Shown piece by piece: positions 1,218-60,232 of a stretch of DNA of 64,000 nucleotides (positions are counted from its first letter, which is position 1; every line of letters begins with the position of its first letter). The stretch covers positions 268,448 through 332,447 of the forward strand of contig NZ_WJXZ01000014.1 of the NCBI RefSeq assembly GCF_009668025.1, given 5' to 3'. The stretch comes from Larkinella terrae. GTDB lineage: Bacteria; Bacteroidota; Bacteroidia; Cytophagales; Spirosomataceae. A model generated the notes under the pieces. That model was not told the origin of the DNA. It saw only the letters and a program-made list of their open reading frames with translations, and did not search any database. The position numbers and the translations under genes are program-made.

Positions 1218-1315
1218 AATTCATTAACAATGAACAATTAATAATGAAAAATAGCCACTGGTATTCGGTCAGTCCCGCTCGCTTCATTCATTGTTAATTG
1301 TTCATTCTTCATTGT
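1218..1315. repeat. Intergenic palindrome, heptad family A
   Basis: An imperfect inverted repeat fills the gap between two permeases. The left arm at about 1221-1248 and right arm at about 1283-1315 pair over about 20 bp. The arms read as 7-nt units of the type ATGAACA/ATTAATA. Family A recurs at 43534, 49695 and 55176, always directly after a permease stop codon. It could serve as a terminator or an mRNA 3' stabiliser, but it has no clear U tract. Confidence 0.75.
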
Positions 1316-1321
1316 CAAAAC

Positions 1322-3754
1322 ATGCAAGGTAACTACTTCAAAACCACCCTGCGCCACCTTTGGCGGAACCGTTTATTTACCACCCTGAACGTGCTGGGGC
1401 TGGCCATCGGCATCAGCAGTTGCTGGGCCATTTACCGGATCGTGAACTACGAGTTCAGCTTCGATACCCAACAGCCGAACCGGAACCGGATTTACCGGGT
1501 GGTCAGTCACTTTAAATCGGATGGGGACGAACGAAAAAATGCCGGGGTGCCGATGCCGATGGCCGACGCCATCCAGGAGCAGGTGCCGGGGCTGGAGAAG
1601 GTGGTGCCGGTTTGGGACCAGTGGAAAGAAAGCGCGGTGATTCCGGGCGGAAAAGTCGGTTCGAACCGGTTTGAGGAACCGGAGAAAATCATCGCCACCA
1701 GTCCACAGTATTTCGACATGGTGCCGCACCGGTGGCTGGCCGGGAACGTGGCTACAGCTTTCGATGGCCCCAATAAAGTGGTGCTGACGCAAAGCCGGGC
1801 GGAGAAATATTTTCCGGGTGTTCCGGCGGCCAACGTGCTGGGCCGGACAATCATGTACGACGATACCGTTGCCGTCCGGGTTTCGGGCGTTGTGGCCGAC
1901 CTCGATTTTCCGAGCAGCTTCGACGCCCGGGAGTTTTTTCCGGTCAAGTACAGCCAGAATTCGAATCCGAATTGGGGCGGAGTCAGTTCTCAAACGAGGC
2001 TGTACGTCCAGCTTGTACCGAATGCGTCTCCTGAGAAGGTCTTGAAGCAAATCAATGCAATTTCGGCCAAAGCGGGTGCGGAAAGTATGGAAAAATATCA
2101 TTTCCAGCACTGGCATCAATTTATTCCGCTGGCTGAGGTTCATTTTTCAACGGATTACAGCGAAAACCTGCGCAAAGCCAATCCGAACGTGCTGTATGGC
2201 TTAATCGGCATTGCGGTTTTTCTGCTGCTGCTGGCCTGCATCAATTACATCAACCTGACGACGGCGCAGATGCCGCAGCGGGCCAAAGAAGTCGGGATTC
2301 GCAAAACGCTGGGCAGTTCGCGCTGGCATCTGATCCGGCAGTTTCTGGGCGAAACGCTGGTTATCACGGTGTTGGCGGTGGGGCTGTCGTTTTTCCTGTC
2401 GCGCTGGGCAATGGCTACTTTTCAGGAACTGATTCCGGAAGGGCTGGACCAATATACGGACTATGGGAAAATGGCGGTTTTTCTGCTGGTGCTGCTGCTG
2501 GGCGTTACCGGTTTTTCGGGACTGTATCCCGGCTGGCTGGTGACCCGCGTGAAGGCCGTGAGCATGATGCGCGGGCAGGTGACGACGGAAGTGGGAAAAG
2601 GTGGTTTGACGCTGCGCAAAAGCCTGATTGTCTTTCAGTTTGTGGTGGCGCAATTGTTCATTGTCGGCACGATGCTGGTTGGTCAGCAACTGCATTATCT
2701 GCTTAATAAAGACCTTGGATTCAACCGGGAAGCGGTTTTGGTTTTCAACGTACCCTGGAAACTGCAGAGCAAACCGACGTACCAGAACCGGCAGTTTACG
2801 TTGCAGCAGGAACTGGCGAAGCAGCCCGGTGTTACGACCGTTGCCCTCGGCAATCCGCCCCTGAACACCTCGTTCAACAGCAATAGTTTTCAGTACAAGC
2901 CGAAAAAAGGCGCGATCATCGAAAAGACGATGTTTATGAAGTATGTCGATACGACGCTGCTTTCGCTGTATAAAATACCGCTGCTGGCGGGCCGCAATTT
3001 AGCCGCATCCGATACTGTCCGCGAATACATCATCAACGAAACCGCCCTGCACGAATTCGGGATGAGGTCGCCCCAGGAAGCGGTTGGGAAATACATCCAG
3101 CAACTGGACGGTCGCCCGATTCAGATTGTCGGCGTCGTGAAAGATTTTCACACCGGATCATTTTACCAGAAAATAGAACCGCTGTTGCTGATGACGGCGA
3201 AAAAGCGCCTGACGACGTTCAGTGTGAAACTGGCCGCAGCGAATCCGGATCAGTGGCAGGCCACGATCAAACAGATGGAGCAAACCTGGAAGCAGTTTTA
3301 CCCGACCGAACCATTCACTTACAAATTCTTCGACAGCACGCTGGAGGAGATTTATACCCGCGAGCGGAACATGTCGCGGATCATCAACCTGGCGACGGCG
3401 GTGGCTGTAGTCATCAGTTGCCTCGGGCTGTTTGGTCTGTCGACCCTGATTGCGTTTCAGCGGGTTAAAGAAGTGGGCGTCCGCAAGGTGCTGGGTGCAA
3501 CGATCGTTAGTATTGTGGGCTTACTGACGCGGGATTTCCTGAAACTCGTGGTAATCGCCATCCTGATTGCTTCGCCGATTGCCTATTATTTCACCGACAA
3601 GTGGCTGCAGGCATTTGCGTACAAAGTCGATATCGAATGGTGGGTGTTTGCCGTCGGAGCGGTAATGGCCATCGGAATTGCCTTCGTAACCGTCAGTTTC
3701 CAAAGCATCAAAGCCGCTTTGACCAACCCGGTAAAAAGTCTTCGGAGTGAATAA
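1322..3754 (+). CDS. FtsX/MacB-type ABC permease, two fused units
   Basis: This 810-residue protein shows the architecture shared by all full-length permeases here. There is an N-terminal membrane helix (about 20-42), a periplasmic MacB-like domain, and three helices with a cytoplasmic RAKEVGIRK motif near 320. A second helix-periplasm-three-helix unit follows, with VKEVGVRKVLGA near 713, and the tail ends NPVKSLRSE. MacB and LolC-type subunits have one such unit and dimerise; here two are fused. The start at 1322 was chosen because MQGNYFKTTLRHLW aligns with the usual N-terminus; an ATG 24 bases upstream would only add residues encoded by the palindrome. The central motif KTLGSS...FLGET places it in the 'ET' subgroup with 29659, 49795 and 52799. 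The substrate is unknown, and the family exports lipids, peptides or macrolides. Confidence 0.93.
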   Translation: MQGNYFKTTLRHLWRNRLFTTLNVLGLAIGISSCWAIYRIVNYEFSFDTQQPNRNRIYRVVSHFKSDGDERKNAGVPMPMADAIQEQVPGLEKVVPVWDQWKESAVIPGGKVGSNRFEEPEKIIATSPQYFDMVPHRWLAGNVATAFDGPNKVVLTQSRAEKYFPGVPAANVLGRTIMYDDTVAVRVSGVVADLDFPSSFDAREFFPVKYSQNSNPNWGGVSSQTRLYVQLVPNASPEKVLKQINAISAKAGAESMEKYHFQHWHQFIPLAEVHFSTDYSENLRKANPNVLYGLIGIAVFLLLLACINYINLTTAQMPQRAKEVGIRKTLGSSRWHLIRQFLGETLVITVLAVGLSFFLSRWAMATFQELIPEGLDQYTDYGKMAVFLLVLLLGVTGFSGLYPGWLVTRVKAVSMMRGQVTTEVGKGGLTLRKSLIVFQFVVAQLFIVGTMLVGQQLHYLLNKDLGFNREAVLVFNVPWKLQSKPTYQNRQFTLQQELAKQPGVTTVALGNPPLNTSFNSNSFQYKPKKGAIIEKTMFMKYVDTTLLSLYKIPLLAGRNLAASDTVREYIINETALHEFGMRSPQEAVGKYIQQLDGRPIQIVGVVKDFHTGSFYQKIEPLLLMTAKKRLTTFSVKLAAANPDQWQATIKQMEQTWKQFYPTEPFTYKFFDSTLEEIYTRERNMSRIINLATAVAVVISCLGLFGLSTLIAFQRVKEVGVRKVLGATIVSIVGLLTRDFLKLVVIAILIASPIAYYFTDKWLQAFAYKVDIEWWVFAVGAVMAIGIAFVTVSFQSIKAALTNPVKSLRSE

Positions 3755-4077: not shown

Positions 4078-4176
4078 TTGTTTCGCGGAGATTAGCGGAG
4101 AAAAAGGGAGCTAAGCGGAGAGGAATAAAAACCTCTGCTTAACTCCCTTTTTCTCCGCTAATCTCCGCGAAACAGC
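4078..4176. repeat. Intergenic palindrome, decamer family B
   Basis: Two arms of about 43 bases (about 4078-4123 and 4132-4176) are almost perfect reverse complements around a short AT-rich loop. Each arm is itself a run of 10-nt units such as GCGGAGATTA. A second copy of the family, with the same outer sequence GTTTCGC, is at 19550-19647. It follows the stop codon at 4073-4075. Confidence 0.85.
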
Positions 4177-6497: not shown

Positions 6498-8918
6498 ATG
6501 CTCCAAAGTTACCTCAAAATCGCCTTCCGGACGCTGTGGCAAAACCGCCTGTATTCGGTCATTAACGTCGTCGGATTGTCCGTCGGAATCGCCTGTGTGT
6601 TGCTGGCCATTCTCTACATCAAAGACGAACAAAGCTTCGACCGGTTTCACGAGCGAAATCCGCACCTCTACCGAATAACCACCACCCTGACCGAAACCAA
6701 AGGCGGGCTGGCCGAGACAAACGGTGGCACGGGGCAGGTGCAGGGCCCAACGTTTAAAGCCCAGGTGCCGGAAGTCCAGGATTACGTTCGGGTGATGGGC
6801 GGTGACATTCAGAGCACGTTTGTTGCGAACCAGAAATCCTCCATTCTACAGCCTTTTTTTGTCGATTCTACTTTTTTCAACGTATTTTCTTTCAGGTTGT
6901 TAAGTGGTAATCCCGAAACCGCTTTGCGAGGTGCAGGGACGGTGGTGGTTACCGAACGAACCGCGCGAAAACTATTCAATAGCCTTGATGTGATCGGAAA
7001 AGTGTTGCTGGAAGACGGCCCGTCGGGCCGCCGATTGGGGGCTTCCATCATCACTGGCGTGGTACAGGACCCGCCCAAAAACTCGTCCCTGCAGTTCGAT
7101 CTGCTGTTTCCGTTCCGGTTTATGCAGGCTTCGTTCGATGATACGAGCTGGCTGAATTCGTACCTGAGCACGTTTGTCGTTTTACACCCCAGGGCCGATG
7201 TAGAAAAGGTTGTTAGGAAATTCGGCAAAGTATACGCCATTCACGCCCGCGATCAGGTGGCCGAAAACCGGAAAAACTACGGTTTTGATCCCGCCATCCA
7301 GTACGGTTTACAGCCCATGACCGACATTCATCTACAGCCTCTGTACCACCGCGAAAACAACCGCGAGGGCGGGGTTACCAACGGCAGTAACCCGGTTTTT
7401 TCGTACATTTTCCTTGGCATTTCAGCTTTCATTCTGCTGATGGCGACCATTAATTTCATCAATATCAGCCTTGCCAATTCGCTGAAACGGACGAAAGAAA
7501 TCGGCGTTCGGAAAGTGACCGGAAGCAGCCGGAAACTCATTATTGTACAATTTCTGGGCGAGTCGGCCATTCTGTGTTTCATCGCCTTCGGAATGGCGGT
7601 TTTGCTGGTGCAACTGGCGCTGCCGGTTTTTAATCAGCTGGCCACCAAAGCAATTGTATTCCGTCAAATCCTGGACGGTTGGTTGCTGCTTTATTTTATT
7701 GTTCTGTTGATTATCAATGTATTTTTGTCGGGATTTTATCCCGCTTTCGTCCTGGCTAAATTCAAGCCCACGGAAGTACTTTACAACAAACCACGCCTTT
7801 CGGGGCGCAACGGGTTTGGCCAAACGCTGGTAATGATTCAGTTCGCGCTATCGGTTTTTCTGGTCATTGCGACTACGGTTTTTTACTATCAGATGGATTA
7901 TGTAAGGACCAAAGATTTGGGTTATGATCCGTATCAGGTGATCGCAACCTACATTCCCTCCAGCAAAAACCTGAAAGGCGATCAGGCGTTTCTGCGGTCC
8001 GAACTGGCCAACGAGCCATCGATCCGGCAGGTTTCGTTTTACAGCGACCTCGGCGGGTCGTATGAGACGCGCGTGGCTGGCCGAAAAATCGAGAGCCGCT
8101 ACCAGTACATCGACGAAAATTACCTGTCGGTATTGGGTATCCATCTGAAAGCGAGACGCAATCTGTTGCCCAATCTTCATTCTGATAAATCGGATGCGGT
8201 TCTTGTCAATGAAGCTTTTGTCAAGGCCGCCGGTTTGGAGAAACCCATTGGAAAACAAATCCGTCTGCACGAGAATTTTAGTCAAAAACCGCTGACCATC
8301 GTTGGCGTAATGAAGGATTTTCATGCTCGTTCATTGCGGGAGCGGATTCCGCCAATGGCGTTGTTTATTCGCGAAGACGAGGCCAGTGGAATGCTCGTGA
8401 AAATTGACAAAAACCGGCAACAGGAAGCGATTACCAGCTTGAAAAAAGTATTCGGGAGAGCCTATTCCTCGATTGAGATGGACTATGCTTTTCTGGATGA
8501 GGTGAACGCCAAAGGCTACGAGCAGGAGCAGAAATGGCTGCGAATTGTGAGCTATGCCACCGGGCTGGCCCTGTTGATTTGCGTCATTGGCGTCTTTGGA
8601 CTGGCGAAGCTGGCAACCGGGCAGCGCACCAAAGAAATCGGGGTTCGGAAAGTGCTGGGCGCAACGGTACTGGACATTGTTACCCTGCTGTCGAAAGATT
8701 TTCTGAAACCGGTTCTGGCGGCCATTGCCCTGGCCTCGCCCGCTGCGGCCTGGGTGATGGGCAGCTGGCTGCAAAATTTTGTCTACCGGGTGGAGATTCA
8801 GTGGTGGATGTTTGCCGGAGCCGGTTTGCTGGCCATCGGAGTCACCCTGCTGACGGTGTCGCTCCAATCCGCCAAAACCGCTCTGCTGAACCCTGTGGAG
8901 AGCTTGAGGAGGGAGTGA
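6498..8918 (+). CDS. FtsX/MacB-type ABC permease, divergent tail
   Basis: This is an 806-residue two-unit permease with cytoplasmic motifs near residues 329 (KRTKEIGVRKVTG) and 708 (QRTKEIGVRKVLGA). It differs from its paralogues at the C-terminus: the usual SFQSIKAALMNPVKSL is replaced by SLQSAKTALLNPVESL and it ends RRE. It is the most divergent tail in the set, which may mean a different ATPase contact or an older split. Its first central motif has Thr instead of Ala (RTKEIG). It faces a Uma2 gene 44 bp upstream and is followed by a decamer palindrome. I see no clear promoter on its own strand in the spacer. Confidence 0.93.
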   Translation: MLQSYLKIAFRTLWQNRLYSVINVVGLSVGIACVLLAILYIKDEQSFDRFHERNPHLYRITTTLTETKGGLAETNGGTGQVQGPTFKAQVPEVQDYVRVMGGDIQSTFVANQKSSILQPFFVDSTFFNVFSFRLLSGNPETALRGAGTVVVTERTARKLFNSLDVIGKVLLEDGPSGRRLGASIITGVVQDPPKNSSLQFDLLFPFRFMQASFDDTSWLNSYLSTFVVLHPRADVEKVVRKFGKVYAIHARDQVAENRKNYGFDPAIQYGLQPMTDIHLQPLYHRENNREGGVTNGSNPVFSYIFLGISAFILLMATINFINISLANSLKRTKEIGVRKVTGSSRKLIIVQFLGESAILCFIAFGMAVLLVQLALPVFNQLATKAIVFRQILDGWLLLYFIVLLIINVFLSGFYPAFVLAKFKPTEVLYNKPRLSGRNGFGQTLVMIQFALSVFLVIATTVFYYQMDYVRTKDLGYDPYQVIATYIPSSKNLKGDQAFLRSELANEPSIRQVSFYSDLGGSYETRVAGRKIESRYQYIDENYLSVLGIHLKARRNLLPNLHSDKSDAVLVNEAFVKAAGLEKPIGKQIRLHENFSQKPLTIVGVMKDFHARSLRERIPPMALFIREDEASGMLVKIDKNRQQEAITSLKKVFGRAYSSIEMDYAFLDEVNAKGYEQEQKWLRIVSYATGLALLICVIGVFGLAKLATGQRTKEIGVRKVLGATVLDIVTLLSKDFLKPVLAAIALASPAAAWVMGSWLQNFVYRVEIQWWMFAGAGLLAIGVTLLTVSLQSAKTALLNPVESLRRE

Positions 8919-9016
8919 GTTATTACACAGGGCTAATCAGAGGAAATCAGGGTTAATCAGGGTTTTATTTTTCTCTGATAAACTCTGATTTCCCCTGATA
9001 AACCCTGTGTAACAAC
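8919..9016. repeat. Intergenic palindrome, decamer family D
   Basis: Arms at 8919-8962 and 8973-9016 pair over about 44 bp with few mismatches. Within each arm the unit AATCAGGGTT and its variants repeat with a period of exactly 10. The left arm starts one base after the permease TGA. No other copy of this exact family is in the window. Confidence 0.85.
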
Positions 9017-19536: not shown

Positions 19537-19549
19537 TTCATTGGAAAGA

Positions 19550-19647
19550 GTTGTTTCGCAGAGTTGAGCGGAGAGAAAGGAGTTAAGCGGAGTTACAATA
19601 CTCTCTGCTTAACTCTATTTTTCTCCGCTCAACTCCGCGAAACAACT
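19550..19647. repeat. Intergenic palindrome, decamer family B (second copy)
   Basis: Arms at 19550-19592 and 19604-19647 share the vocabulary of the copy at 4078 (outer GTTTCGC, inner GCGGAG repeats) but differ at many bases, and each mismatch is largely compensated in the opposite arm. It lies between two tandem minus-strand genes. Confidence 0.85.
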
Positions 19648-23073: not shown

Positions 23074-23108
23074 AAAAGAAACAGAAGGTAAGGGCACTCA
23101 AAGATAAT

Positions 23109-35532: not shown

Positions 35533-35534
35533 CA

Positions 35535-36380: not shown

Positions 36381-36390
36381 CGACCTGAAT

Positions 36391-36468: not shown

Positions 36469-36562
36469 GGAGAGAACGCTGCTTCTTTCTTTTTGATTTC
36501 CGTACCGGGAAACGCACCCACGCGTCCATTCTGCTTTTTGCTCACGTCAAAACCGGTACGTT

Positions 36563-37351: not shown

Positions 37352-37355
37352 AAAT

Positions 37356-37449
37356 AGATAAAAGAGTAGAGACAAGAGAAGTGAGACTAGATCATTACTT
37401 TTAACGCATGCCCCTGTCTCTATTCTCTTGTCTAACCTCTCTTGTCTAC
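37356..37449. repeat. Intergenic palindrome, heptad family E, inside the thi operon
   Basis: The left arm at about 37356-37390 and right arm at about 37413-37449 pair imperfectly over about 30 bp. Units such as AGACAAG AGAAGTG repeat every seven bases. It lies between thiM and thiE, within what should be one transcript, so it may cause differential expression. Confidence 0.7.
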
Positions 37450-41083: not shown

Positions 41084-43522
41084 ATGTACAAAAACTACCT
41101 CAAAATTGCGCTCCGCAACCTGTTGAAGAATAAGGTTTTTTCGGGCGTAAACATTGCCGGGCTGGCGCTCGGTATAGCTGCTTTTGTACTGATTCTGGAA
41201 TACATCAGTTTTGAAAACAGTGTCAACGGTTTTCATAAAAACCTGCCGACGCTGTACCGAATGTTGTGGCAGAACAAAACCGGCGACGTTTGGACGGACA
41301 TGCCTCCGGCGGTGGCGACGCTGATGAAGGAAAAATTTCCCGAGGTGACCGATTTCTGCCGGGTGGTCGATAGTTCCATTTCCGGCATCGTAACCTCCGC
41401 CACCGGGCAAAACCGCCAGTCGCCCCGGTCGTTTCGGGAGACGGAAATTGCGTACGCCGACGCCAGTTTTTTCAGCCTTTTCAGTTTCCCGATTCTGCAG
41501 GGCGATGCGGCCACGGCACTGACCCGTCCCAATACAGTGGCCGTTTCGGAGTCGTACGCCCGGAAATATTTTGGCAATGCGAAGGCCCTAGGTCAGGTGT
41601 TGACCTTCAACAACCAGTTTGGCGAAGCGCTTTACACCGTTACGGCGGTTTATGCCGATATGCCGCAAAACTCGGATTTGAAGTTTGGAATGGTGTTTTC
41701 GCTGCAAACATTTGCGAATCCGGCCAACCTCAACGGCAACGACTGGGCGCGGCTCGACAGCTTCGACGGCGCCTATCTGATCACCTATTTGCAGTTGCCC
41801 GAAGACGCGGATTACCGGAAACTGGAGGATAAATTCGATCAACTGAAAAAGAAAATCCGGCCTGAAGACGCCAACCGGATGGTGCTGCAACCCGCCAAAA
41901 ATATTCACCTGGGGGCGTCGCTGAGCGATCCGTACCCAACCACCGGCAACCTGGGGTTTGTCTATTTACTGGGCGGTATTGCGGTTTTGATTCTGGTCAT
42001 TGCCTGGTTCAATTACATCAATCTTTCGACCGCCGGAGCCTTGAAACGGGCGAAGGAAGTGGGCGTCCGGAAAGTAATCGGCGCGGGGCACCGGCAGTTG
42101 ATCGGGCAGTTTCTGGGCGAATCTTTTTTGCTGAACCTGCTCGGTTTCGGGCTGGCGCTGATGCTGGTAATGACGCTGCAGCCGGTATTCAACGAACTGA
42201 TTAAAAAAGAGTTGTCGCTGAATCTGCTGACGTCCAATGCGTTCTGGCTGGCCGGTTTAGGGCTGCTGCTTTTCGGCGCACTGGCATCAGGTGGGTATAC
42301 GGCCTTTGCCCTGACGTCGTTCCGGCCGCTTCAGACGTTGAAAGGGGCTTTTGGGACGAGTGCAAAGGGCGGTTCGCTGCGGAAAACGCTGGTGGTTTTT
42401 CAATTTAGCGTGTCGGTAGTGCTCATCATTTGCACGTTCGTGTTGTACCGCCAGTTGCGGTTTATGCAGAACCAGAATCTGGGCGTCAAGCTGGATCAGC
42501 GCGTGGTGATTCACGGGCCGGAAGTGGGGAAAGATTCGACGTTTAAAGCCCGGACGGCGGCTCTGGAACACGAACTGGACCAGTTGCCGTACATCAAAAG
42601 CTTTTGCAGTTCGGGCACCGTGCCGGGGAATTACTACAATTTTTCGACCAACGGTATTACCCGCCAGAATCCGGCTTTGGGCGACGATAAGAAAACGTAT
42701 TCGATGGGTTTCATCGACGCGAAATTTTTACCGACCTACGGAATTGCCCTGGCGGCAGGCCGAAATTTTACGACTACGGAATGCGAAGCGGGTTACGTAA
42801 AAAGCGGCAAACTGCTGGTCAACGAAAAGGGAGCGAAGTGGTTGGGTTTCAAGCCGGCGGCCGATGCAGTGGGCAAAATCATCAACTGGGGAAAACCGTT
42901 TGAAATTGTCGGCGTCGTGAACGATTACCACCACCAGTCGCTTCAGAAAGCGATTGATCCGATCATTTTCATGCCCCAGAATCACGGCAACTGGCTGACG
43001 ATCCAGCTTTCTACCGACCGTATTCAAACCAAAATAGCGGATCTGGAGCGGCTTTACAAAGCGAGTTACCCGGGCAATCCGTTCGAGTTCTTTTTCGTGG
43101 ATGAGAATTACAACAGGCAGTACCAGACGGAGCAGCAATACGGCCGAATTTTTATTACGGCTTCGCTGCTGGCGATTTTCATTGCGTGCCTGGGCTTGTT
43201 CGGACTGGCGACTTTCCTGACCGAGCAGCGGACAAAAGAAATCGGCGTCCGGAAGGTGCTGGGCGCGTCGGTGGGCAGCATCGTGTCGCTGCTTTCGAAA
43301 GATTTCATGAAGCTCGTTCTGCTGGCGTTTGTGATTGCTTCGCCCATTGCCTGGTACGCAACCCGCTACTGGTTGCAGAACTTCGAATACAAAATCGATC
43401 TGGAATGGTGGCTGTTCGGCCTGGCGGGCGGTCTGGCCGTCCTGATTGCGCTGGCGACCATTTCCTTCCAAAGCATTAAAGCCGCCCTGACGAATCCGGT
43501 TTCCTCGCTGCGCTCGGAATAG
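41084..43522 (+). CDS. FtsX/MacB-type ABC permease under a sigma-54-like promoter
   Basis: This 812-residue two-unit permease, the longest here, has motifs RAKEVGVRKVIGA near 321 and QRTKEIGVRKVLGA near 715, and the tail NPVSSLRSE. In the second periplasmic domain it has an insert around residue 565-580 with a Cys (TTECEAGYVKSGKL) not seen in its paralogues. Its control region is nearly identical in layout to that of the permease at 47352. A perfect 25-bp family A palindrome follows its stop codon, and the next permease has a separate promoter. Confidence 0.93.
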   Translation: MYKNYLKIALRNLLKNKVFSGVNIAGLALGIAAFVLILEYISFENSVNGFHKNLPTLYRMLWQNKTGDVWTDMPPAVATLMKEKFPEVTDFCRVVDSSISGIVTSATGQNRQSPRSFRETEIAYADASFFSLFSFPILQGDAATALTRPNTVAVSESYARKYFGNAKALGQVLTFNNQFGEALYTVTAVYADMPQNSDLKFGMVFSLQTFANPANLNGNDWARLDSFDGAYLITYLQLPEDADYRKLEDKFDQLKKKIRPEDANRMVLQPAKNIHLGASLSDPYPTTGNLGFVYLLGGIAVLILVIAWFNYINLSTAGALKRAKEVGVRKVIGAGHRQLIGQFLGESFLLNLLGFGLALMLVMTLQPVFNELIKKELSLNLLTSNAFWLAGLGLLLFGALASGGYTAFALTSFRPLQTLKGAFGTSAKGGSLRKTLVVFQFSVSVVLIICTFVLYRQLRFMQNQNLGVKLDQRVVIHGPEVGKDSTFKARTAALEHELDQLPYIKSFCSSGTVPGNYYNFSTNGITRQNPALGDDKKTYSMGFIDAKFLPTYGIALAAGRNFTTTECEAGYVKSGKLLVNEKGAKWLGFKPAADAVGKIINWGKPFEIVGVVNDYHHQSLQKAIDPIIFMPQNHGNWLTIQLSTDRIQTKIADLERLYKASYPGNPFEFFFVDENYNRQYQTEQQYGRIFITASLLAIFIACLGLFGLATFLTEQRTKEIGVRKVLGASVGSIVSLLSKDFMKLVLLAFVIASPIAWYATRYWLQNFEYKIDLEWWLFGLAGGLAVLIALATISFQSIKAALTNPVSSLRSE

Positions 43523-43533: not shown

Positions 43534-43612
43534 AAATGAACAATTAACAATGAATAATCAAAGGGTGCCATTCGGATTCACCTCTTCATTATTCATTGTT
43601 AATTGTTCATTT
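43534..43612. repeat. Intergenic palindrome, heptad family A
   Basis: The arms at 43534-43558 and 43588-43612 are perfect reverse complements over 25 bp, the cleanest copy of family A. Units AATGAAC and AATTAAC repeat every seven bases. Confidence 0.9.
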
Positions 43613-46069: not shown

Positions 46070-46076
46070 AAAGAAT

Positions 46077-46185
46077 AGGGCATGGGGCAGAGGGGTTTGG
46101 GCCAGGGGTCGTTTCCAGTTCAGCCGATTTCCCTTCTCTCCATGTCCTTTAAACCCTTTGCCCCAACCCCTCTGCCCCATGCCCT
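46077..46185. repeat. Intergenic palindrome, heptad family C
   Basis: The left arm at 46077-46107 and right arm at 46154-46185 pair over about 30 bp around a 46-base loop. Units GGGGCAG AGGGGTT show the period of seven. The right arm ends just before a -7 box. Confidence 0.85.
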
Positions 46186-46193
46186 AAAATTCG

Positions 46194-47351: not shown

Positions 47352-49700
47352 ATGCTACAAAATTACATCAAGATTGCCTGGCGGAGCCTCCTCAAAAACC
47401 GGCTTTATTCGTTTATCAATATTTTCGGCCTGGCGCTGGGCATGTCGTGCAGCCTGCTGGTCGGGCTGTGGGTAAACGACGAACTGAGCTATGACCGGTT
47501 TTTACCGCATCTCGATGATATCTACTATGTGCGGACGAACAGTGTCAGTGAAGGTAAAACGTATACCGGTACGCTGACGCCGGGTCCGGTGGCTGGCGTC
47601 CTGAAACGCGATGTGCCGGAAATTCAGTACGCAACCAAAGTGCAGTTTCCGGAGGAAAAGCTCATCAAGGTGGGTGAAAAATCGACGAAAGAAAAAGGCT
47701 TTTTCGCAACGAAAGACTTCTTTCTGGTGTTCGATTTTCCGGCCATTGCGGGCAGCCCGCTGATGGCGCACGCCAAACCGGATCAGATTATCGTTACCCG
47801 CAAAATAGCCGAAAAATTCTTCGGAACGACCAATGCCGTGGGCAAGCGGCTGCATTTCGACAACACGACGTATTACACCGTAGGAGCGGTTCTGGAAGAC
47901 ATTCCTCGTAATTCGAGCCTGCGGTTCGACTGGCTCATCAATTACGATGTGCAGGAGCAGGACTGGAAAAAAACCTGGGGAAATTTTTCGTTTCTGACCT
48001 ACGTGCGGCTGGACGGAAAGGCGACACAGGCCAGGGCCGAAGCCAACATGAAACCGATTTTCCGGCGAAATACGGACTGGAAAGAAGCCCCGACGCTGGT
48101 TCTCCAGCCCATGAAGGAAGTGTATCTATACGCTGAATACGAAGACGGAAAAGCGGTGGGCGGGCGCATCGAATACGTCCGGATTTTTGCGTTGGTGTCC
48201 GTATTTATTCTCTTGATTGCCTGCGTAAACTTCATGAACCTGGCGACGGCCCGTTCGGCCGGGCGGGCGAAGGAAGTGGGCGTGCGGAAGGTGGTTGGGG
48301 CGCTGCGGTCGTCACTGATCGGGCAGTTCATCAGCGAGTCGGTACTGACGAGTTTGCTGGCGGTTTTGCTTTCATTGGCGTTCGTGCTGCTGGTTTTGCC
48401 CACATTCAATGCGGTTTTTGCCAAACAACTTACCCTGAACCTCGCAAATCCGGTGCTGTGGGCGGGCATGCTGGCGTTGGTGCTGATCACCGGTTTTGTA
48501 TCGGGTAGTTACCCGGCTCTGTTTCTCTCTTCGCTCCAGCCGATCCGGATTCTGAAAGGGACCCTGAAATTTGGCGTCGGGGCGGCTTTGTTTCGCCGGG
48601 CACTGGTCATTTTTCAGTTTACGCTGTCCATTTTCCTGATCATCGGCATGCTGGCCGTGGAATACCAGATGGACTATATCCGTACCATTAACCTCGGGCT
48701 CGATCGCGAAAACGTCCTGTACGTACCGCTCGAAAACGAAACGTACAAACGGATGGAAGTCTTCCGGCAGGAACTGATCCGGACGCCCTCCATTGCGTCG
48801 GCTTCGGCGAGTATGAGCCTGCCCATGAACATCGAAGCCACCTCCGGGGATTTGACCTGGCCGGGTAAAAAGCCCGATCAGGGCTCCAACGTATCGACTA
48901 TGTCGGTGGGTTACGATTTCCTGAAAACCATGAACATCAGGCTGGTCGACGGACGCGATTTTTCGAGCGACCGTAAAGCCGATTCGGCCTCGTACATCAT
49001 CAACGAAGCGGCCGCTAAAATGATGGGCATGAAGAATCCGGTGGGCAAACAGGTCGGTTTCTGGATGGGCAAAGGACCGATCATTGGCGTCATGAAAGAT
49101 TTCCACCTGCAATCGCTGCACAGCCCGATTACGCCCCTGGTGCTGACGTTGATACCGGTGAACACGAGCTACCTGCTGGTGCGTCCCGAAAAAGGCAAAA
49201 CCGCCGAAGCCATCGCCGAACTGGAACGGGCAACGAAGGATTTCAACCCCGATTATCCCTTTGAATACCATTTTCTCGACGATGCCTACGAGCGGATGTA
49301 CCGCAGTGAGCAACAGGTCAATACGCTGATCAACTACTTCGGGACGCTGGCGATTCTGATTTCGTGCCTGGGCCTTTTTGCGCTGGCGGCCTTCACGGCG
49401 GAGCAGCGCAAAAAAGAAATTGGCGTCCGGAAAGTGCTGGGCGCGTCGGTGGGTAGTCTGGTTGCGTTGACCTCGAAAGACTTCCTGAAACTGGTGGTGG
49501 TGGCAATGGCGCTGGCGTCTCCATTGGCGTGGTGGGCGGTTTCGAAATGGCTCGAGACATTCCAGTACAGCGTCCAGTTATCCTGGTGGCTCTTCGTCAC
49601 GGCGGGCGTGCTCGCCTGTTTGATTGCCTTTTTAACGGTCAGTTATCAGTCGGTCAAAGCCGCATTAACGAATCCGGTGACCTCACTTCGTTCGGAATGA
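47352..49700 (+). CDS. FtsX/MacB-type ABC permease under a sigma-54-like promoter
   Basis: This 782-residue two-unit permease, the shortest full-length member, has motifs RAKEVGVRKVVGA near 304 and QRKKEIGVRKVLGA near 684, and the tail NPVTSLRSE. It is closest in motif detail to the permease at 57764 (the same VVGA...SSL start of the QF segment). The last 25 bases around its stop codon are identical to those of the permease at 52799. It is probably the first gene of a two-permease transcript with 49795, interrupted by a family A palindrome. Confidence 0.93.
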   Translation: MLQNYIKIAWRSLLKNRLYSFINIFGLALGMSCSLLVGLWVNDELSYDRFLPHLDDIYYVRTNSVSEGKTYTGTLTPGPVAGVLKRDVPEIQYATKVQFPEEKLIKVGEKSTKEKGFFATKDFFLVFDFPAIAGSPLMAHAKPDQIIVTRKIAEKFFGTTNAVGKRLHFDNTTYYTVGAVLEDIPRNSSLRFDWLINYDVQEQDWKKTWGNFSFLTYVRLDGKATQARAEANMKPIFRRNTDWKEAPTLVLQPMKEVYLYAEYEDGKAVGGRIEYVRIFALVSVFILLIACVNFMNLATARSAGRAKEVGVRKVVGALRSSLIGQFISESVLTSLLAVLLSLAFVLLVLPTFNAVFAKQLTLNLANPVLWAGMLALVLITGFVSGSYPALFLSSLQPIRILKGTLKFGVGAALFRRALVIFQFTLSIFLIIGMLAVEYQMDYIRTINLGLDRENVLYVPLENETYKRMEVFRQELIRTPSIASASASMSLPMNIEATSGDLTWPGKKPDQGSNVSTMSVGYDFLKTMNIRLVDGRDFSSDRKADSASYIINEAAAKMMGMKNPVGKQVGFWMGKGPIIGVMKDFHLQSLHSPITPLVLTLIPVNTSYLLVRPEKGKTAEAIAELERATKDFNPDYPFEYHFLDDAYERMYRSEQQVNTLINYFGTLAILISCLGLFALAAFTAEQRKKEIGVRKVLGASVGSLVALTSKDFLKLVVVAMALASPLAWWAVSKWLETFQYSVQLSWWLFVTAGVLACLIAFLTVSYQSVKAALTNPVTSLRSE

Positions 49701-49783
49701 ACAATGAATAATTAATATCGGGCAATTAATCCTTGACTGTCAGCAGGTTAGCCTGTTCATTGTTCATTATTAATTGTTCATTC
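49695..49783. repeat. Intergenic palindrome, heptad family A
   Basis: The left arm from 49695 includes the permease stop codon, and the right arm lies at about 49754-49783. Pairing is imperfect but the AATGAAC/AATTAAT units are clear. Confidence 0.75.
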
Positions 49784-52212: not shown

Positions 52213-52301
52213 GATAGGAACACTGATTGAACGGATGCAACGGATTAGAAGAGATAAAATCAGTTTTAATCCGTTACATCCGTTCAATCAGTGTTCCTAT
52301 C
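52212..52301. repeat. Intergenic palindrome, nonamer family F
   Basis: Arms at about 52212-52249 and 52265-52301 pair over about 36 bp with two mismatches. Units ATTGAACGG and ATGCAACGG repeat every nine bases. It separates a permease and a convergent Uma2 gene and abuts both stop codons. Confidence 0.88.
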
Positions 52302-52798: not shown

Positions 52799-55180
52799 AT
52801 GCTTCGCAATTACCTCAAAACTACCTGGCGCAGCCTGATTCGCAACCGGAATTATGCACTGATCAACCTCATCGGTCTGACGTTGGGGCTGGGCGTGGCC
52901 ATTGTGTTGTTCTGGATTGTGCGGTTTGAATACAGCTTCGACCGATATCACGCGAAAGCCGACCGGCTTTACCGGCTCATTGCGAAGGATAAGTTCGGCG
53001 AGATGGGGACCTCGATTCCGCAGGGCGTGATCAAGGCGCTCAACGAACGGGTGCCGGGGGTCGAGAACGCGGCCAATGCCTACGGTTACGGTTCGGACGG
53101 GCTGCGGGTGGGGCAAACGGTTTTCAACCTCAAACACGTTTTTTTCGTACCACCGCAGTTTCTGGAAATGATCGACGTGGAGTGGGTACAGGGTTCGGCG
53201 CAGCAATCACTGAGTCGGCCGTTTCAGGTCGTACTGGACGAGCCCACGGCCCGGCGGTTTTTCAAGAATGCGGACCCCATTGGCAAAACCATCCGGTATA
53301 ATAACCAGTTTGATCTGGTCGTGTCGGGCATTATTCGCAAAGCGCCGGTCAACTCGGAGTTTCAGTTGCAGCTTTTGACGTCCCGCGAGACGCTGAAACG
53401 CATCCAAAACGAATACAGCAACGAGGAATACTGGGGCGGTGGCGATTCGATGCACCACGGCTACGTCGTGCTGAAACCGGGCGTTTCGCCCTCCGCCATC
53501 GAGGCCGCGTTGAAAAAGCTGGCCCTGCAACACCAGAACGAGTCTGCGATAGTTGCGTATGAGCTGCTGCCGATCACGGAAGTGCATCGCAACACGGAAA
53601 CCGATCCTGATCCGTTCAATTACGTCATTCCGCAGTGGATGCTGAACACCTTAATGGCCATTGGTTTATTTCTGATCGTGATTGCCTGCATCAATTTTAT
53701 CAATCTGGCCACGGTGCAGGCTGTTCAGCGGAGCCGCGAAATTGCGGTTCGTAAAGTGCTGGGCAGCAGTCGGAAACAGTTGATGTACCGGTTTTTCGGG
53801 GAAACGGCTTTTCTGGTTTTTGCCGCCATCGGTCTGGGTGCTTTGCTGGCTACGCAGTTGATTCAGAATGCCGACCAGTTGCTGAACACCCAGGTGGCGC
53901 AGTCACAGGTTTGGGACGGCGGTGCGGTTGCGTTTCTGTTGATGCTGGGATTTCTGGTAACTTTTCTGGCGGGATTATATCCGGCGTTGGTGCTTTCGGG
54001 TTTTCAACCGGTGAAGGTCTTGCGGGGGCGGTTTTCCTTAGCCCGGTCCAACGGTTTTTCGCTGCGATCATCGCTGGTCGTTACCCAGTTTGTTATCGCC
54101 CAGGTGCTGGTCATCTGTACGTTGATTGGCACCCGGCAAATCCGGTATTTCTACGAGACCGACCTGGGCTTCGACAGAAAAGCCATTGTTACGGTCAAAA
54201 TGCCGGATCGGGGCAATGCGGTTTTGCGGGAACGGTTTCGGCGGCAATTGCTCGATCACCCGGAAGTGAAAGATGTGGCTTTTGCCCTGACCACGCCCTC
54301 AAGTGCCCACAACTGGTGGTGGCGAACGATTCATCACCACAACCTGCCCAATGGCGAGCAGACTTTCCGCATGCAATATGTGGACACAAACTACTTCCAT
54401 TTTTTCAAAATTCCGCTGATTGCCGGTCGGTCGTGGACGCGGGCGGACACGAATACTGTCGCGATTATCAACGAAAAAGCCGCCCGCGATCTGGGCTTCA
54501 GGAATCCGGAAAAAGCCATTGGCGAACGGCTCAATCTGGAAGGTAACCAGCCGTTTACCGTCATGGGCGTCGTGAAAGATTACCATTCGCAAAGCCTGCG
54601 GTCGACCATTGTACCGCACGTCTTCCTCTATGCCGACTGGAATTTCCAGCTGGCCAGCATCCGAATCGATCCGAGGCAGCAACCGAAGGCCCTGCAACAC
54701 ATTGAACAGTACTGGAAAGCGATTTTTCCCAACTACTATTTTGAAGCCAGCTTTCTGGATCAGGATTTGAAGGCTTTCTACGACGACGAACAAAAAATGA
54801 CTAACTTCTTGACACTCTTTGCCATCGTGGGCATTTTGATCGGTTGCCTGGGCCTGTTCGGCCTGGTGTCGTTCGTCGTCACGCAGCGGACGAAGGAAAT
54901 TGGCGTTCGGAAGGTGCTGGGGGCGACGATTGTCAGTATTGTATCCCTGTTGTCGAAAGATTTCCTGAAACTGGTTGGGGTCGCTTTTGCCATTGCGACG
55001 CCCATTGGCTGGTACGCCATGAGCCGGTTTTTGGAGGAATACACGTACCGGATTGACATTGACTGGTGGGTATTTGCGCTGGCCGGGAGCCTGGCCGGAG
55101 CCATTGCCTTACTGACGGTTTCAGTCCAATCAATAAAGGCAGCTTTGACGAATCCGATTACCTCACTTCGTTCGGAATGA
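52799..55180 (+). CDS. FtsX/MacB-type ABC permease ('ET' subgroup)
   Basis: This 793-residue two-unit permease has motifs RSREIAVRKVLGS near 310 and QRTKEIGVRKVLGA near 696, and the tail NPITSLRSE. The first motif is the most altered of the set (SREIAVRK instead of AKEVGVRK) and is followed by YRFFGET. The 3' end, including the stop codon and 8 bases beyond, is identical over 25 bases to that of the permease at 47352, although the proteins are not close relatives. The Uma2-like gene starts 48 bp upstream on the other strand. Confidence 0.93.
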   Translation: MLRNYLKTTWRSLIRNRNYALINLIGLTLGLGVAIVLFWIVRFEYSFDRYHAKADRLYRLIAKDKFGEMGTSIPQGVIKALNERVPGVENAANAYGYGSDGLRVGQTVFNLKHVFFVPPQFLEMIDVEWVQGSAQQSLSRPFQVVLDEPTARRFFKNADPIGKTIRYNNQFDLVVSGIIRKAPVNSEFQLQLLTSRETLKRIQNEYSNEEYWGGGDSMHHGYVVLKPGVSPSAIEAALKKLALQHQNESAIVAYELLPITEVHRNTETDPDPFNYVIPQWMLNTLMAIGLFLIVIACINFINLATVQAVQRSREIAVRKVLGSSRKQLMYRFFGETAFLVFAAIGLGALLATQLIQNADQLLNTQVAQSQVWDGGAVAFLLMLGFLVTFLAGLYPALVLSGFQPVKVLRGRFSLARSNGFSLRSSLVVTQFVIAQVLVICTLIGTRQIRYFYETDLGFDRKAIVTVKMPDRGNAVLRERFRRQLLDHPEVKDVAFALTTPSSAHNWWWRTIHHHNLPNGEQTFRMQYVDTNYFHFFKIPLIAGRSWTRADTNTVAIINEKAARDLGFRNPEKAIGERLNLEGNQPFTVMGVVKDYHSQSLRSTIVPHVFLYADWNFQLASIRIDPRQQPKALQHIEQYWKAIFPNYYFEASFLDQDLKAFYDDEQKMTNFLTLFAIVGILIGCLGLFGLVSFVVTQRTKEIGVRKVLGATIVSIVSLLSKDFLKLVGVAFAIATPIGWYAMSRFLEEYTYRIDIDWWVFALAGSLAGAIALLTVSVQSIKAALTNPITSLRSE

Positions 55181-55254
55181 ACAATTAACAATGAATAATG
55201 AACGATAAATACTGGACTATTACTCTGTTCATTATTCATTGTTAATTATTCATT
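55176..55254. repeat. Intergenic palindrome, heptad family A
   Basis: Arms at 55176-55203 and 55227-55254 pair over 28 bp with one mismatch. The left arm includes the permease stop codon. Confidence 0.88.
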
Positions 55255-57763: not shown

Positions 57764-60127
57764 ATGCTAACGAACTACCTCAAAATTGCCTGGCGTAATC
57801 TCAAACGCAACAAAACATTTTCGCTGATCAACATCCTGGGGCTGGCCCTCGGCATGGCCTGCAGCCTGATCATTTTGCTGTGGGTGCAGGACGAACTTGC
57901 GATGGACCGGTTTCACGCGAACGACAGCCGGATTTACCGGGTCATGGAAAATCAGGCCTGGGCCGGGCAGGACGTCGGTTCGACATCTTCGACGCCCGGA
58001 ATTCTGGCCGAAAACCTGAAAAAGGACTTTCAGGAAGTGGAAAAAGCCGCCATGATGACCTGGGAGCAGAATATCCTGCTGACCGTGGGCAATACGTTTG
58101 GGAAAGAAAAGGGGCGGTTTGCCAGCGGAGATTTCCTGAGCATCTTTTCGTTTCCGCTCAAGCAGGGCGACGCCCGAACCGCGCTGGCCCGGCCGGACGC
58201 CATTGTGATTTCCGAAAAACTGGCCCGGAAATACTTTCCCCACCAGGACGCGCTCGGAAAGGTGATTCGCGTCGACAATACCGACGACATGATGGTGACA
58301 GGCGTCATGGGCGAAATCCCGGAAAACAGCTCCCTGAAGTTTGACTACCTGATGTCGTGGGAGCGGTTTGTCAAATACAATAACTGGGTGAAAGAGTGGG
58401 GCAACAACGGGCCGCGGACGTTCGTGTTGCTGAGCAAAAATGCCGATTCGGAGAAGGTATCGGCCAAAATAAAGGATTATATCAAGCAAAAAACCAACAA
58501 GCAAACCAACAACATTGAGCTGTTTCTGCAAAAAAGCAGCGATGCGTACCTGCATTCCAATTTCAAAAACGGAAAGCTCAACGGCGGCCGGATCGAATAC
58601 GTTCAGTTGTTTATCATCGTTGCGGTTTTTATTCTGATCATTGCCTGCATCAATTTCATGAACCTGGCCACGGCGCGGTCGGTAAAACGGGCCAAGGAAG
58701 TGGGTGTCCGGAAAGTAGTGGGGGCGGAACGCTCCTCGCTGATGGGGCAGTTTGTGGGCGAATCGATGCTGATTTCGTTGCTGGCCCTGTTGGTGGCGGT
58801 TTTGGTGGTGGTGATGACGCTGCCGGTTTTTAACGAACTCACGGAAAAACACCTGGCATTCCGATTCGATGATCCATTTTTCTGGCTGGTTTTGCTGGGG
58901 CTGACGCTGGTAACCGGCTTGGTTTCGGGGAGTTATCCGGCCCTGTTCCTGTCGTCGCTGAAACCGGTTGTGGTGCTGAAAGGCGTTCTGAAATTCAAAC
59001 CAAGTGCGACGTTTTTCCGCAAAGGGCTGGTGGTTTTTCAGTTTTCGCTCTCCATCATTCTGATTGTGGGAATGATCATCATTTACCGGCAGATTCAATA
59101 CATCCAGACCAAAAACCTGGGTTTCGACAAAGAGAACCTGCTGTATATGCCGCTGGAAGGCGATTTGAAAAAGAACTATCAGACGTTTCGCCGGGAATTG
59201 CTGACGCAGCCGGGCATCAAGGAGGTATCGGCCTCGTGGTCGGACCCGCTGGAGGTGGGCAGCTCGACCATAGGCGTCGGCTGGCGGGGCAAAGACACGA
59301 CCCAGCGGATTCTGTTCAACCAGACCGCCGTGCATTACGGCTACCTCAAGGCGATGGATATCAAGCTGAAAGAAGGGCGGGATTTTTCGCCGGATTTTAG
59401 TACGGATACTACGAATTACATCATCAACGAAGAATCGGCGCGGAAAATCGGCTACAAAAACCCGATCGGGCAGGAATTGACGTTTTGGGGACGAAAGGGC
59501 ATTATTGTCGGGGTCGTGAAAAATTACCACATTAATTCACTGCACGTGGCCATCGAACCGCTCATTCTGCACATGCAGCGGAAGGAATTTGACGGCGTGG
59601 TGCTGGTTCGCGCCGAAAAGGGCCGAACCCGGGAAGCAATGGCGAATCTGGAACGAACGTTCCATAAGTTCAATCCCCGGTATCCGTTCGAGTACAAATT
59701 CACGGATCAGGAGTTTGGCAATAATTACAAGAGCGAGAACATCGTGAGCAAACTGGCGAATTACTTCGCGTTTCTGGCCATTTTTATCTCCTGCCTGGGG
59801 CTGTTTGGCCTGGCGGCCTTTACCGCCGAACAGCGTACGAAGGAGATTGGCATCCGCAAAGTGTTGGGAGCCAGCATCACCAACATCGTGCTTATGCTTT
59901 CGAAGGACTTTTTGCTGCTGGTATTACTGTCGTCGCTGGTGGCCCTTCCGGTGGCCTGGTGGGCGATGAGCAGCTGGCTGGAAAAATACAAAAACCGCAT
60001 CGACATCGAGTGGTGGATGTTTGCGGCCGCCGTTGTCGCTTCGCTCGCCATTGCGCTCTTCACCATCAGTTTCCAGAGCATTAAAGCCGCCCTGATGAAT
60101 CCGGTGAAGAGTTTGAAGACGGAATAA
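57764..60127 (+). CDS. FtsX/MacB-type ABC permease
   Basis: This 787-residue two-unit permease has motifs RAKEVGVRKVVGA near 308 and QRTKEIGIRKVLGA near 689, and the tail NPVKSLKTE. It shares the VVGA...SSLMGQF segment with the permease at 47352 and is likely its closest relative in the window. After the second motif it has LMLSKDFLLLVLL rather than LLSKDFLKLV. It is the last of the eight permeases in the right half and is followed by a nonamer palindrome and a metabolic gene. Confidence 0.93.
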   Translation: MLTNYLKIAWRNLKRNKTFSLINILGLALGMACSLIILLWVQDELAMDRFHANDSRIYRVMENQAWAGQDVGSTSSTPGILAENLKKDFQEVEKAAMMTWEQNILLTVGNTFGKEKGRFASGDFLSIFSFPLKQGDARTALARPDAIVISEKLARKYFPHQDALGKVIRVDNTDDMMVTGVMGEIPENSSLKFDYLMSWERFVKYNNWVKEWGNNGPRTFVLLSKNADSEKVSAKIKDYIKQKTNKQTNNIELFLQKSSDAYLHSNFKNGKLNGGRIEYVQLFIIVAVFILIIACINFMNLATARSVKRAKEVGVRKVVGAERSSLMGQFVGESMLISLLALLVAVLVVVMTLPVFNELTEKHLAFRFDDPFFWLVLLGLTLVTGLVSGSYPALFLSSLKPVVVLKGVLKFKPSATFFRKGLVVFQFSLSIILIVGMIIIYRQIQYIQTKNLGFDKENLLYMPLEGDLKKNYQTFRRELLTQPGIKEVSASWSDPLEVGSSTIGVGWRGKDTTQRILFNQTAVHYGYLKAMDIKLKEGRDFSPDFSTDTTNYIINEESARKIGYKNPIGQELTFWGRKGIIVGVVKNYHINSLHVAIEPLILHMQRKEFDGVVLVRAEKGRTREAMANLERTFHKFNPRYPFEYKFTDQEFGNNYKSENIVSKLANYFAFLAIFISCLGLFGLAAFTAEQRTKEIGIRKVLGASITNIVLMLSKDFLLLVLLSSLVALPVAWWAMSSWLEKYKNRIDIEWWMFAAAVVASLAIALFTISFQSIKAALMNPVKSLKTE

Positions 60128-60129
60128 AG

Positions 60130-60232
60130 ACTATGATTACGCTGATTTCAGTGATTGATCTGATGGGCTGGCGCGGAAAATCGCCTAATCCGTTTCTATC
60201 AGGCAAATCATTGGAATCAGCGTAATCATCGT
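60130..60232. repeat. Intergenic palindrome, nonamer family G
   Basis: Arms at 60130-60156 and 60206-60232 pair over 27 bp with few mismatches. The left arm continues as TGATTTCAG TGATTGATC units with a period of nine. It follows the permease stop by two bases. Confidence 0.82.

Follow-up and report, generated by a model that had tools for sequence, protein, structure and literature searches.

Long inverted repeats stand at the gene junctions of a 64,000-nucleotide stretch of the Larkinella terrae genome (contig NZ_WJXZ01000014.1, positions 268,448 to 332,447; hereafter the window), and the arms of many of these palindromes are themselves degenerate tandem repeats of a 7- to 10-nt unit. Such palindromes form a class that extends through the genome. 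They lie directly behind stop codons, their two arms change together with no bias towards G-U pairs, the spacer between the arms is inverted at a few junctions, and the palindromes found at orthologous junctions turn over rapidly. On balance, we think it probable that the sites are slots for a 3'-end hairpin and that these slots are filled by rapidly evolving palindromes.

The original prediction had reported long inverted repeats at eleven or more junctions of the window and had sorted them by their units into types lettered A to G. At 13 of its 14 positions, two inverted-repeat searches recovered junction repeats whose arms measure 20-42 nt; the remaining position, 21861, lies inside an open reading frame (ORF). 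The self-match lags given for the arms were reproduced at p≤0.05 in 9 of the 12 window arms tested, and not in those at 46076, 19549 and 37370.

Abundance and periodicity

The sample consisted of 864 kb of the same 7.85-Mb genome, made up of the window and 40 stretches of 20 kb, three of which adjoin the window while the others form a grid; genes were called with our own codon-usage caller. The sample held 124 inverted repeats with arms of at least 18 nt, as compared to 4 in one dinucleotide-shuffled copy; two stretches of Escherichia coli K-12, totalling 100 kb, held one. When arms of at least 20 nt were measured against dinucleotide shuffles of the same arm, 52 of 95 proved periodic at p≤0.05 and 36 of 95 at p≤0.01. 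The best lag was 7 in 36 of the 52 periodic arms, 9 in seven, 10 in five and 8 in four; it was 5, 6, 11 or 12 in none. Most of these arms thus have the tandem intergenic 7-nt units of heptamer repeats, the units being degenerate and accompanied by others of 8-10 nt. Among non-palindromic intergenic segments taken as controls, 19 of 285 were periodic (lag 7 in 10 of those). A plain score cut-off, applied to a slightly larger set, passed 69 of 136 repeats from this genome and 66 of 164 from sister species; one own arm was found at lag 5, one sister arm at lag 11, and all the rest at lags 7-10.

Periodicity is not driven by a single abundant family, because 17 of 48 families (own and sister repeats, arms of at least 22 nt) were periodic when judged by one representative each, whereas 200 shuffles gave 4.5 on average and 9 at most. 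Averaged over families, self-matches were in excess at lag 7 (t 2.4) and lag 8 (t 2.3), less so at lag 9 (t 1.8), and depleted at lag 6 (t -3.8). Periodic arms are found well beyond the window, and the outcome that the original prediction had named as a refutation, an autocorrelation of the arms no higher than that of shuffles, was not what these tests gave. The contrast that had been drawn with ordinary terminators and repetitive extragenic palindromic (REP) elements, said not to be periodic in this way, holds in part: 43 of the 95 arms were not significantly periodic, including most of those belonging to the CCCCTAAAGGGG family. This family contributed 30 of 188 arms sampled, mostly non-periodic, and makes up the main part of the non-periodic long repeats. 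The CCCCTAAAGGGG palindromes are a family apart, present in the own and sister genomes (for example at L019, L043, L044 and L046); at one place (set B gene 6 in relative G006) such a palindrome is nested inside another palindrome. A joining of all heptamer types into one continuum through shared 9-mers was considered and dropped: 76 of 188 arms could be linked, but shuffled arms cluster too (16-34).

Position at gene junctions

At junctions of up to 900 bp, the density of repeats in the own genome was 2.27 per kb between convergent genes, 1.32 between co-directional genes and 0.11 between divergent genes. The corresponding figures in a comparison of nine genomes were 2.13, 0.92 and 0.28. The statement that the palindromes start close to a stop codon was borne out for the periodic ones, whose median distance from the upstream stop was 5 nt, with 35 of 40 co-directional cases at 20 nt or less; 38 of the 40 lay closer to this stop than to the next start. 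At convergent junctions 29 of 34 flank distances were likewise no more than 20 nt, so that the palindrome often nearly fills the gap. Intrinsic (Rho-independent) terminators form a hairpin close 3' of the stop codon, and the palindromes have the same position. Of the co-directional periodic palindromes, 35 of 41 in the own genome and 14 of 15 in sister species had a 5' arm rich in purines; since a palindrome reads alike on both strands, this purine richness holds on either strand.

Paired arm changes and inverted spacers

Orthologous junctions were compared in eight relatives of the same genus. Three of these (G002, G003 and G006; median protein identity 96.9-97.6%) yielded 50 directed comparisons comprising 1,373 base pairs, of which 1,212 were unchanged and 95 had changed on one arm. 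Where both members of a pair had changed, pairing was kept in 63 cases and broken in 3; independent change of the two arms would give 3.1 pair-keeping cases. Paired changes occurred, once or more, in 23 of the 50. Since species were compared in both directions and also in three-way sets, these counts exceed the number of true events; this double counting should not by itself create the 63:3 ratio. Eighteen comparisons were skipped for gaps and five for divergence, and 58 reference pairs that were already mismatched were left out. An automatic screen of loops, in which unlike hairpins are included, gave paired and single arm changes in ratios of 23:17 within the trio and 22:10 among the other relatives.

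Paired changes are classically taken as evidence of selection on RNA, and selection on RNA pairs should favour G-U. The mismatches present in the arms do not have this character. Read on the sense strand, the co-directional repeats (202 from own and sister genomes together, whether or not they are periodic) contained 118 G-T and 134 A-C mismatches; in the periodic repeats alone the numbers were 29 and 29 (own) and 7 and 12 (sisters). As a control, 33 short T-tailed hairpins in these loci had 10 G-T versus 2 A-C. With these hairpins as the control, the balance between G-T and A-C argues against selection on single RNA pairs, which was rejected. A wider form of the same idea is that the palindromes are RNA terminators or 3' stabilisers kept by selection on RNA pairing, their periodicity being incidental. 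Their location behind stops and scarcity at divergent junctions would suit such a role, as would the occupation of terminator slots (see below) and the predicted RNA folds, which were very stable in the eight palindromes folded (z -8.0 to -16.5). Selection of this sort should have left a G-U excess, as in the short T-tailed hairpins, and the palindromes have none; nor does it account for the paucity of T-tracts, the inverted spacers or the significant periodicity. We regard it as unlikely.

Inverted spacers were found by two approaches. Hand-picked loops, some of them chosen on a suspected inversion, were compared 26 times at 17 junctions: 5 comparisons showed an inverted loop, 12 the same orientation and 9 were unclear. 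The inverted loops came from 4 of the 17 picked junctions (set A genes 12, 40, 28 and 65), gene 65 being a weak case (24 vs 20). In an unselected screen starting from 1,239 junction pairs, the loop could be aligned in 24 of 133 palindrome pairs, and 7 of the 24 were flagged as inverted. Two of the seven (set A gene 6, set B gene 74) set different kinds of hairpin side by side and were discounted, leaving 5 inverted pairs at 3 junctions (set A 12 and 40; set B 52).

Paired changes without G-U bias, together with flipped spacers, suggest that the arms are matched to each other as DNA and not through selection on RNA pairs, and the simplest means would be template switching by fold-back. Template switching between the arms of an inverted repeat is described as producing both arm homogenisation and spacer inversion (PMC8604942), and has been suggested both to generate RNA stems and to preserve them (PMC8794818). 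Both patterns appear to be present here, the arms having apparently been homogenised without passing through RNA-pair intermediates. The process has been shown in yeast genes, on short repeats, and the stems of RNA genes have been suggested as another case; a genome-wide bacterial class of 3'-end palindromes, or arms with a unit period, is absent from the portions of these two accounts at hand (PMC8604942, PMC8794818).

Turnover at orthologous junctions

A junction that carries a periodic palindrome in one species may in another hold units of a different type, a scar, or a short hairpin rich in G+C. At set A gene 4, four species display between them three distinct arrangements of heptamers and one CCCCTAAAGGGG element. 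At the junction of gene 67 of G004, where the window's genome has an A-type palindrome, both G004 and G001 carry a short hairpin rich in G+C. Arms of the AGACAAG type occupy set B junction 10 in three species, and G007 has there a G+C-rich hairpin followed by a T-rich tail. The loop motif GGCTGACGC has been kept at set B gene 52, in both orientations, between arms of two heptamer types; the motif recurs with three arm types. The loop motif GCGTCAGC was present in 11 of 300 loops (orthologues included), compared with at most 3-5 in shuffled loops. The comparison of sister-species junctions that had been suggested at the outset has thus revealed paired arm changes, flipped loops and swaps of unit type. 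It also modifies the notion that the families are unrelated: heptamer types replace each other at an orthologous junction or share a loop motif, whereas the 10-nt B type is indeed discrete and dispersed, with a consensus of its own.

Changes in unit number were seen as single cases. One 7-nt unit was lost from a single arm at set B gene 60, the arms were longer by 28 and 19 nt at set B gene 92, and steps of 7, 14 and 8 nt occurred at set A genes 28, 26 and 71, respectively. A G+C-rich stretch of 15-16 nt (CTCCGGCGACCCGGT-like, once reversed) was found inserted in heptamer palindromes at set B genes 5 and 40 (G006 and G002).

The swapping of units bears on a further explanation, related to the reading protein that the original prediction had also put forward: units of 7-10 nt, in duplex or cruciform form, would be recognised by a sequence-specific protein, as at a structural or partitioning site, with the pairing of the arms resulting from binding as a dimer. 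Such a protein might explain why lags are nearly restricted to 7-10 and why the same A-type units turn up in distant phyla. However, unit sequences vary widely and are exchanged at orthologous sites, and the number of A-type copies ranges from 0 to more than 100 within the genus. Nothing pointing to such a reader was found, although no search aimed at one was made. The explanation is, to our minds, highly improbable.

Occurrence within and beyond the genome

The B type was found in at least 40 places, the query included, among 40 of 76 candidates scored; most matched nearly all of its approximately 97 bp, loop included, at 74-88% identity. The outer end of the element is TGTTTCGCGGAG-like and each arm contains four 10-nt units. 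These many full-length copies with a common consensus are one trait of a miniature inverted-repeat transposable element (MITE), and the alignments indicate that at least the B type is a dispersed element of about 97 bp with its own consensus. Types other than B have units in common, and rarely whole loops. For the G element no second full-length copy was obtained at E 0.001 (40 of 43 candidates scored); G-type arms occur in L016 and L033.

The A type was followed with a 21-mer, allowing one mismatch. It matched 129 times in the own genome, 68 times in G008, which is the closest relative among those compared, and 0-27 times in 57 other relatives searched; within the genus, the seven genomes besides these two had 0-3 matches. 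A stricter A-type palindrome pattern picked out 40 stretches in a collection of 84,980 species; the hosts are diverse Bacteroidota, among them Larkinella rosea KCTC 52004, together with Planctomycetaceae, one cyanobacterium and a bin assigned to the Patescibacteria. In 25 of the 28 stretches from outside Larkinella, the 3' end of an adjacent ORF was no more than 30 nt away from the pattern, as judged by simple longest-ORF calls and with some stretches representing the same locus in related strains. Other genera also have periodic types of their own, such as a 10-nt CGCAGATT-like one (L226) and a 9-nt ACACGGATT-like one (L112), with others at L218, L121 and L136. Among nine periodic arms from outside the genus, lag 11 was found once and lag 12 once. 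One of 30 repeats from other genera, and one of 25 repeats at the loci with the A-type pattern, are runs of N.

This distribution raises the possibility that each type is a REP- or MITE-like, non-autonomous family moved by a transposase, which would be found behind stop codons because insertions elsewhere are harmful and which would decay neutrally once in place. Besides the near full-length B copies, it could account for the patchy occurrence of A-type copies among genomes of the genus, for the recurrent loop motif GCGTCAGC and for a CCCCTAAAGGGG element present in one species and absent at the same site in eight (set B junction 50); in addition, genes for Y1 transposases occur in all nine genomes, with 1-7 matches each. 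Other results do not fit. The GTAG/CGTC tag of REP elements matched only 6 of 272 palindrome ends, a rate of 0.02 that lies below the background of 0.07, and no palindrome of the window's types was found beside the transposase gene in the 12 Y1 loci examined of 28 matches listed. For the G element, as noted, no second full-length copy passed among the candidates scored. Three sites lacking a heptamer palindrome, inspected by eye, had arm-like scars that look more like a deletion than an empty target, and the one candidate 5-nt target-site repeat, at a short orthologous site, fits deletion equally well. Paired arm changes and flipped spacers are not produced by neutral decay. Movement of such families as the whole explanation seems to us possible and rather doubtful. 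Two specific versions were rejected. REP elements driven by a REP-associated tyrosine transposase (RAYT) are contradicted by the missing tag and by the absence of palindromes of these types in the 12 Y1 loci. The ends of a single transposon family, which the original prediction had itself named as an outcome to watch for, do not fit types that differ in unit, period and copy number.

Probable terminator slots

Folding was compared at orthologous junctions that have no long repeat. The first 80 nt after the stop codon folded with a mean z of -2.63 (n = 34) where an orthologue carries a periodic palindrome and of -1.12 (n = 181) where the other species have none (Mann-Whitney p = 3e-4); z was below -2.5 in 47% and 22% of the cases, respectively. 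Periodic palindromes were found in 52 of 141 orthologues of palindrome junctions, as opposed to 66 of 571 orthologues of junctions that lack a long repeat in the reference. This suggests that the palindromes occupy places where a 3' hairpin would be kept anyway. T-tailed hairpins were detected at 1 of 78 gene 3' ends with a periodic palindrome and at 15 of 427 without, numbers too small to compare. The palindromes are like intrinsic terminators in placing a hairpin near the stop codon and in sharing orthologous sites with them; they are unlike them in mostly lacking a T-tract, in having stems of 20-45 bp and in showing no G-U bias. One strong hairpin, at 36247-36326, lies between a stop codon and a thiamine pyrophosphate (TPP) riboswitch, a location that would fit a transcript end. 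A hairpin at these sites is probably useful as a terminator or as a barrier at the 3' end, and the function we favour is that of a functional slot whose sequence content is free.

A model for the origin of the palindromes

The model that we propose for these rapidly evolving 3'-end hairpins begins with what has been shown: long inverted repeats, especially those with periodic arms, sit directly 3' of stop codons and are rare at divergent junctions, where only promoters are expected. Folding back of the nascent strand, or a change of template, would then let one arm serve as the source from which the other is copied anew, giving the pattern seen in the arm comparisons, and the same event would flip the spacer. 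Tandem units of 7-10 nt could arise, or persist, if the fold-back pairing slipped by one unit, as the single cases hint; slips of this kind would add or remove units and spread variants along both arms, so that the unit type would drift or be swapped in place. Some types, at least B, would in addition be dispersed as whole elements of approximately 97 bp, as its copies partly show. The sites themselves would be the ends of transcripts, and stems of 20-45 bp would far exceed what is needed there; single pairs would then escape selection and the sequence could churn freely. The common generating mechanism invoked in the original prediction, slipped or template-switched copying, is accordingly upheld for one of its halves more than for the other. 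Paired changes without G-U bias and inverted spacers argue for template switching as the cause of the palindromy. Slippage as the cause of the periodicity is illustrated by the single 7-, 8- and 14-nt steps and finds no echo in the spectrum of insertions and deletions (indels).

Several observations weigh against this model. The indel spectrum inside palindromes, which is noisy and dominated by alignments with non-homologous inserts, shows no enrichment at 7 nt, and for that reason slippage can be put forward only provisionally as the source of the period. Slippage alone, moreover, does not explain the near-absence of lags 5, 6, 11 and 12, and lag 10 was not raised in the family averages (t -0.7). 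Selection for pairing in a DNA cruciform would also give paired changes without G-U bias, but no inverted spacers. The T-tailed control is small, and choosing hairpins by their T-tail may itself favour T at the base of the stem. In the B type homogenisation looks weak: from the 20 best-ranked copies and the two window copies, 19 gave a central inverted repeat, whose arms matched at 0.878 within a copy versus 0.850 between copies, and the partner in the same copy was the best-matching arm in 2 of the 19. (The same comparison for the other types was set aside, being biased by the way in which the repeats are detected.) As to the use of the sites, the folding difference may partly reflect decayed palindromes and the junctions are not independent; five or more T in the next 8 nt were found for just 9 of 43 periodic co-directional palindromes, so that a U-tract is generally missing; and at set B junction 13 the palindrome is closely followed, on its downstream side, by a T-tailed hairpin that is conserved, and is thus not the sole candidate terminator there.

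A broader conjecture can be attached to the model, although we hold it only tentatively. Fold-back replication at transcript ends could be a standing generator of bacterial 3' hairpins, turning a short hairpin into a long periodic palindrome as copying slips by a unit defined by the polymerase or by the hairpin. A single process, at work independently in Bacteroidota, Planctomycetes and Cyanobacteria, would then have yielded the various types one after another, and mutation would keep renewing terminators that are not themselves conserved.

Relation to known systems

Heptamer repeats of cyanobacteria go by the name of STRR (short tandemly repeated repetitive) sequences, and Mazel (1990) and Elhai (2008) are said to have dealt with cyanobacterial repeats; they share tandem intergenic units of 7 nt with the present palindromes but are direct repeats. 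Heptamer repeats of Calothrix are mentioned in a study of Xanthomonas (PMC4692102), where GGGAATC heptamers form intergenic arrays with 70 and 75 convergent close site pairs in two genomes. These pairs are palindromes with 7-nt periodic arms and constitute the nearest precedent for the anatomy described here; they differ in having one unit sequence and were studied as G-quadruplex repeats. As far as the available part of that account goes, it contains no class of many types, no 8- to 10-nt types, no joint change of the arms and no spacer inversion (PMC4692102). TAACTGA repeats, reported from Beggiatoaceae, Cyanobacteria and five Bacteroidetes, resemble the present ones in being tandem intergenic 7-nt units spread patchily across phyla (PMC4679880). 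They are, unlike ours, direct repeats, which in the Guaymas Beggiatoaceae stand mostly just before start codons, with one inverted set (PMC4679880).

REP elements and their RAYTs (PMC3733652) share with the palindromes a multi-copy, intergenic and palindromic nature and a patchy distribution between strains; the palindromes are longer, have periodic arms that change together and lack the GTAG/CGTC tag. BrickBuilt of Porphyromonas gingivalis, a MITE with an internal minisatellite, likewise combines tandem and inverted repeats in the intergenic DNA of a member of the Bacteroidota (PMC4596501). Its 23-nt unit lies in the body of the element, between small inverted-repeat ends, whereas here the arms themselves are the repeats (PMC4596501). 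Five A-type array strings were not found in the literature text searched, and titles and the opening lines of abstracts disclosed no many-type class with such dynamics. The parts therefore have precedents, in the Xanthomonas heptamer pairs, in REP elements and MITEs and in template switching; none was found for their combination in the literature searched.

When a long stem shows paired changes, this usually counts as proof that an RNA structure is under selection. In the present case, paired changes without G-U bias and flipped spacers point to the copying of one arm from the other. If this is true, bacterial template switching could be studied at these loci as in a natural experiment, each of several sequenced relatives having many sites, and they carry a warning for the discovery of RNAs by covariation. 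They also sharpen the question of why tandem units between bacterial genes so often measure 7 nt.

Palindromes of the window

No strand is assigned to any of the palindromes that follow. The A type, with the 7-nt unit AATKAAY, is represented four times. The copy at 1223-1312 begins a few nucleotides 3' of the stop codon at 1214 (core arm at 1229; lag 7, p 0.022). That at 43534-43612 has 34-nt arms (lag 7, p 0.007) and lies 3' of a gene for a MacB_PCD/FtsX permease; that at 49695-49783 overlaps the stop codon (49700) of another MacB_PCD/FtsX gene, and its arm, shorter than 20 nt, falls outside the periodicity test. The fourth, at 55176-55254, overlaps the stop codon at 55180 (lag 7, p 0.002).

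Both copies of the B type have been located close to their predicted positions. The one at 4079-4174 (10-nt unit, NNNNGCGGAG-like) has 42-nt arms that are 95% complementary (lag 10, p 0.002); the other, at 19549-19647, starts 4 nt from the stop (19651) of a minus-strand ORF and has an arm truncated by mismatches (p 0.27). The D type, also with a 10-nt unit, occupies 8919-9016, adjoining the stop at 8918 (lag 10, p 0.002). Units of 9 nt characterise the F type at 52213-52301, which is AACGGATTG-like and adjoins the stop at 52212 (lag 9, p 0.037), and the G type at 60130-60232, whose unit is TGATTWCGC-like (lag 9, p 0.002). The E type at 37355-37448 is AGACAAG-like; this copy, tested on the arm at 37370, gave p 0.11, and the best lag of its nine-member family was 7, with a mean z of 2.5.

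C-type palindromes have 7-nt units, GGGCATA for example. One spans 35517-35623, with core arms at 35546-35565 and 35575-35594 (lag 7, p 0.020). A second, at 36247-36326, is the palindrome located 3' of the stop at 36243 and 5' of the TPP riboswitch (lag 7, p 0.022); the riboswitch was recognised at 36387-36479 (Rfam RF00059, 68.9 bits), just downstream, and no other Rfam family reached its gathering score in the window. A third, at 46076-46186, has 34-nt arms (lag 7, p 0.095). The C-like repeat at 21861-21945 is short, interrupted and weaker, and neither of the two inverted-repeat searches, one with looser extension, recovered a long repeat there. It lies not at a junction but inside an FG-GAP/ASPIC_UnbV ORF of 1148 amino acids (19651-23097, minus strand). 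The aligned orthologues in G008 and G003 span approximately 21 and 54 nt less than the corresponding part of this ORF, lengths which hint that the repeat may be an in-frame insertion.

All four ORFs tested for the permease domains (6498-8918, 41084-43522, 47352-49700 and 57764-60127) encode MacB_PCD/FtsX permeases, and further ORFs of similar size, about 780-812 amino acids, are present in the window. In a stretch adjoining the window (L013), A-type matches occur approximately 2.7 kb apart, as if gene and A-type palindrome had been duplicated together.

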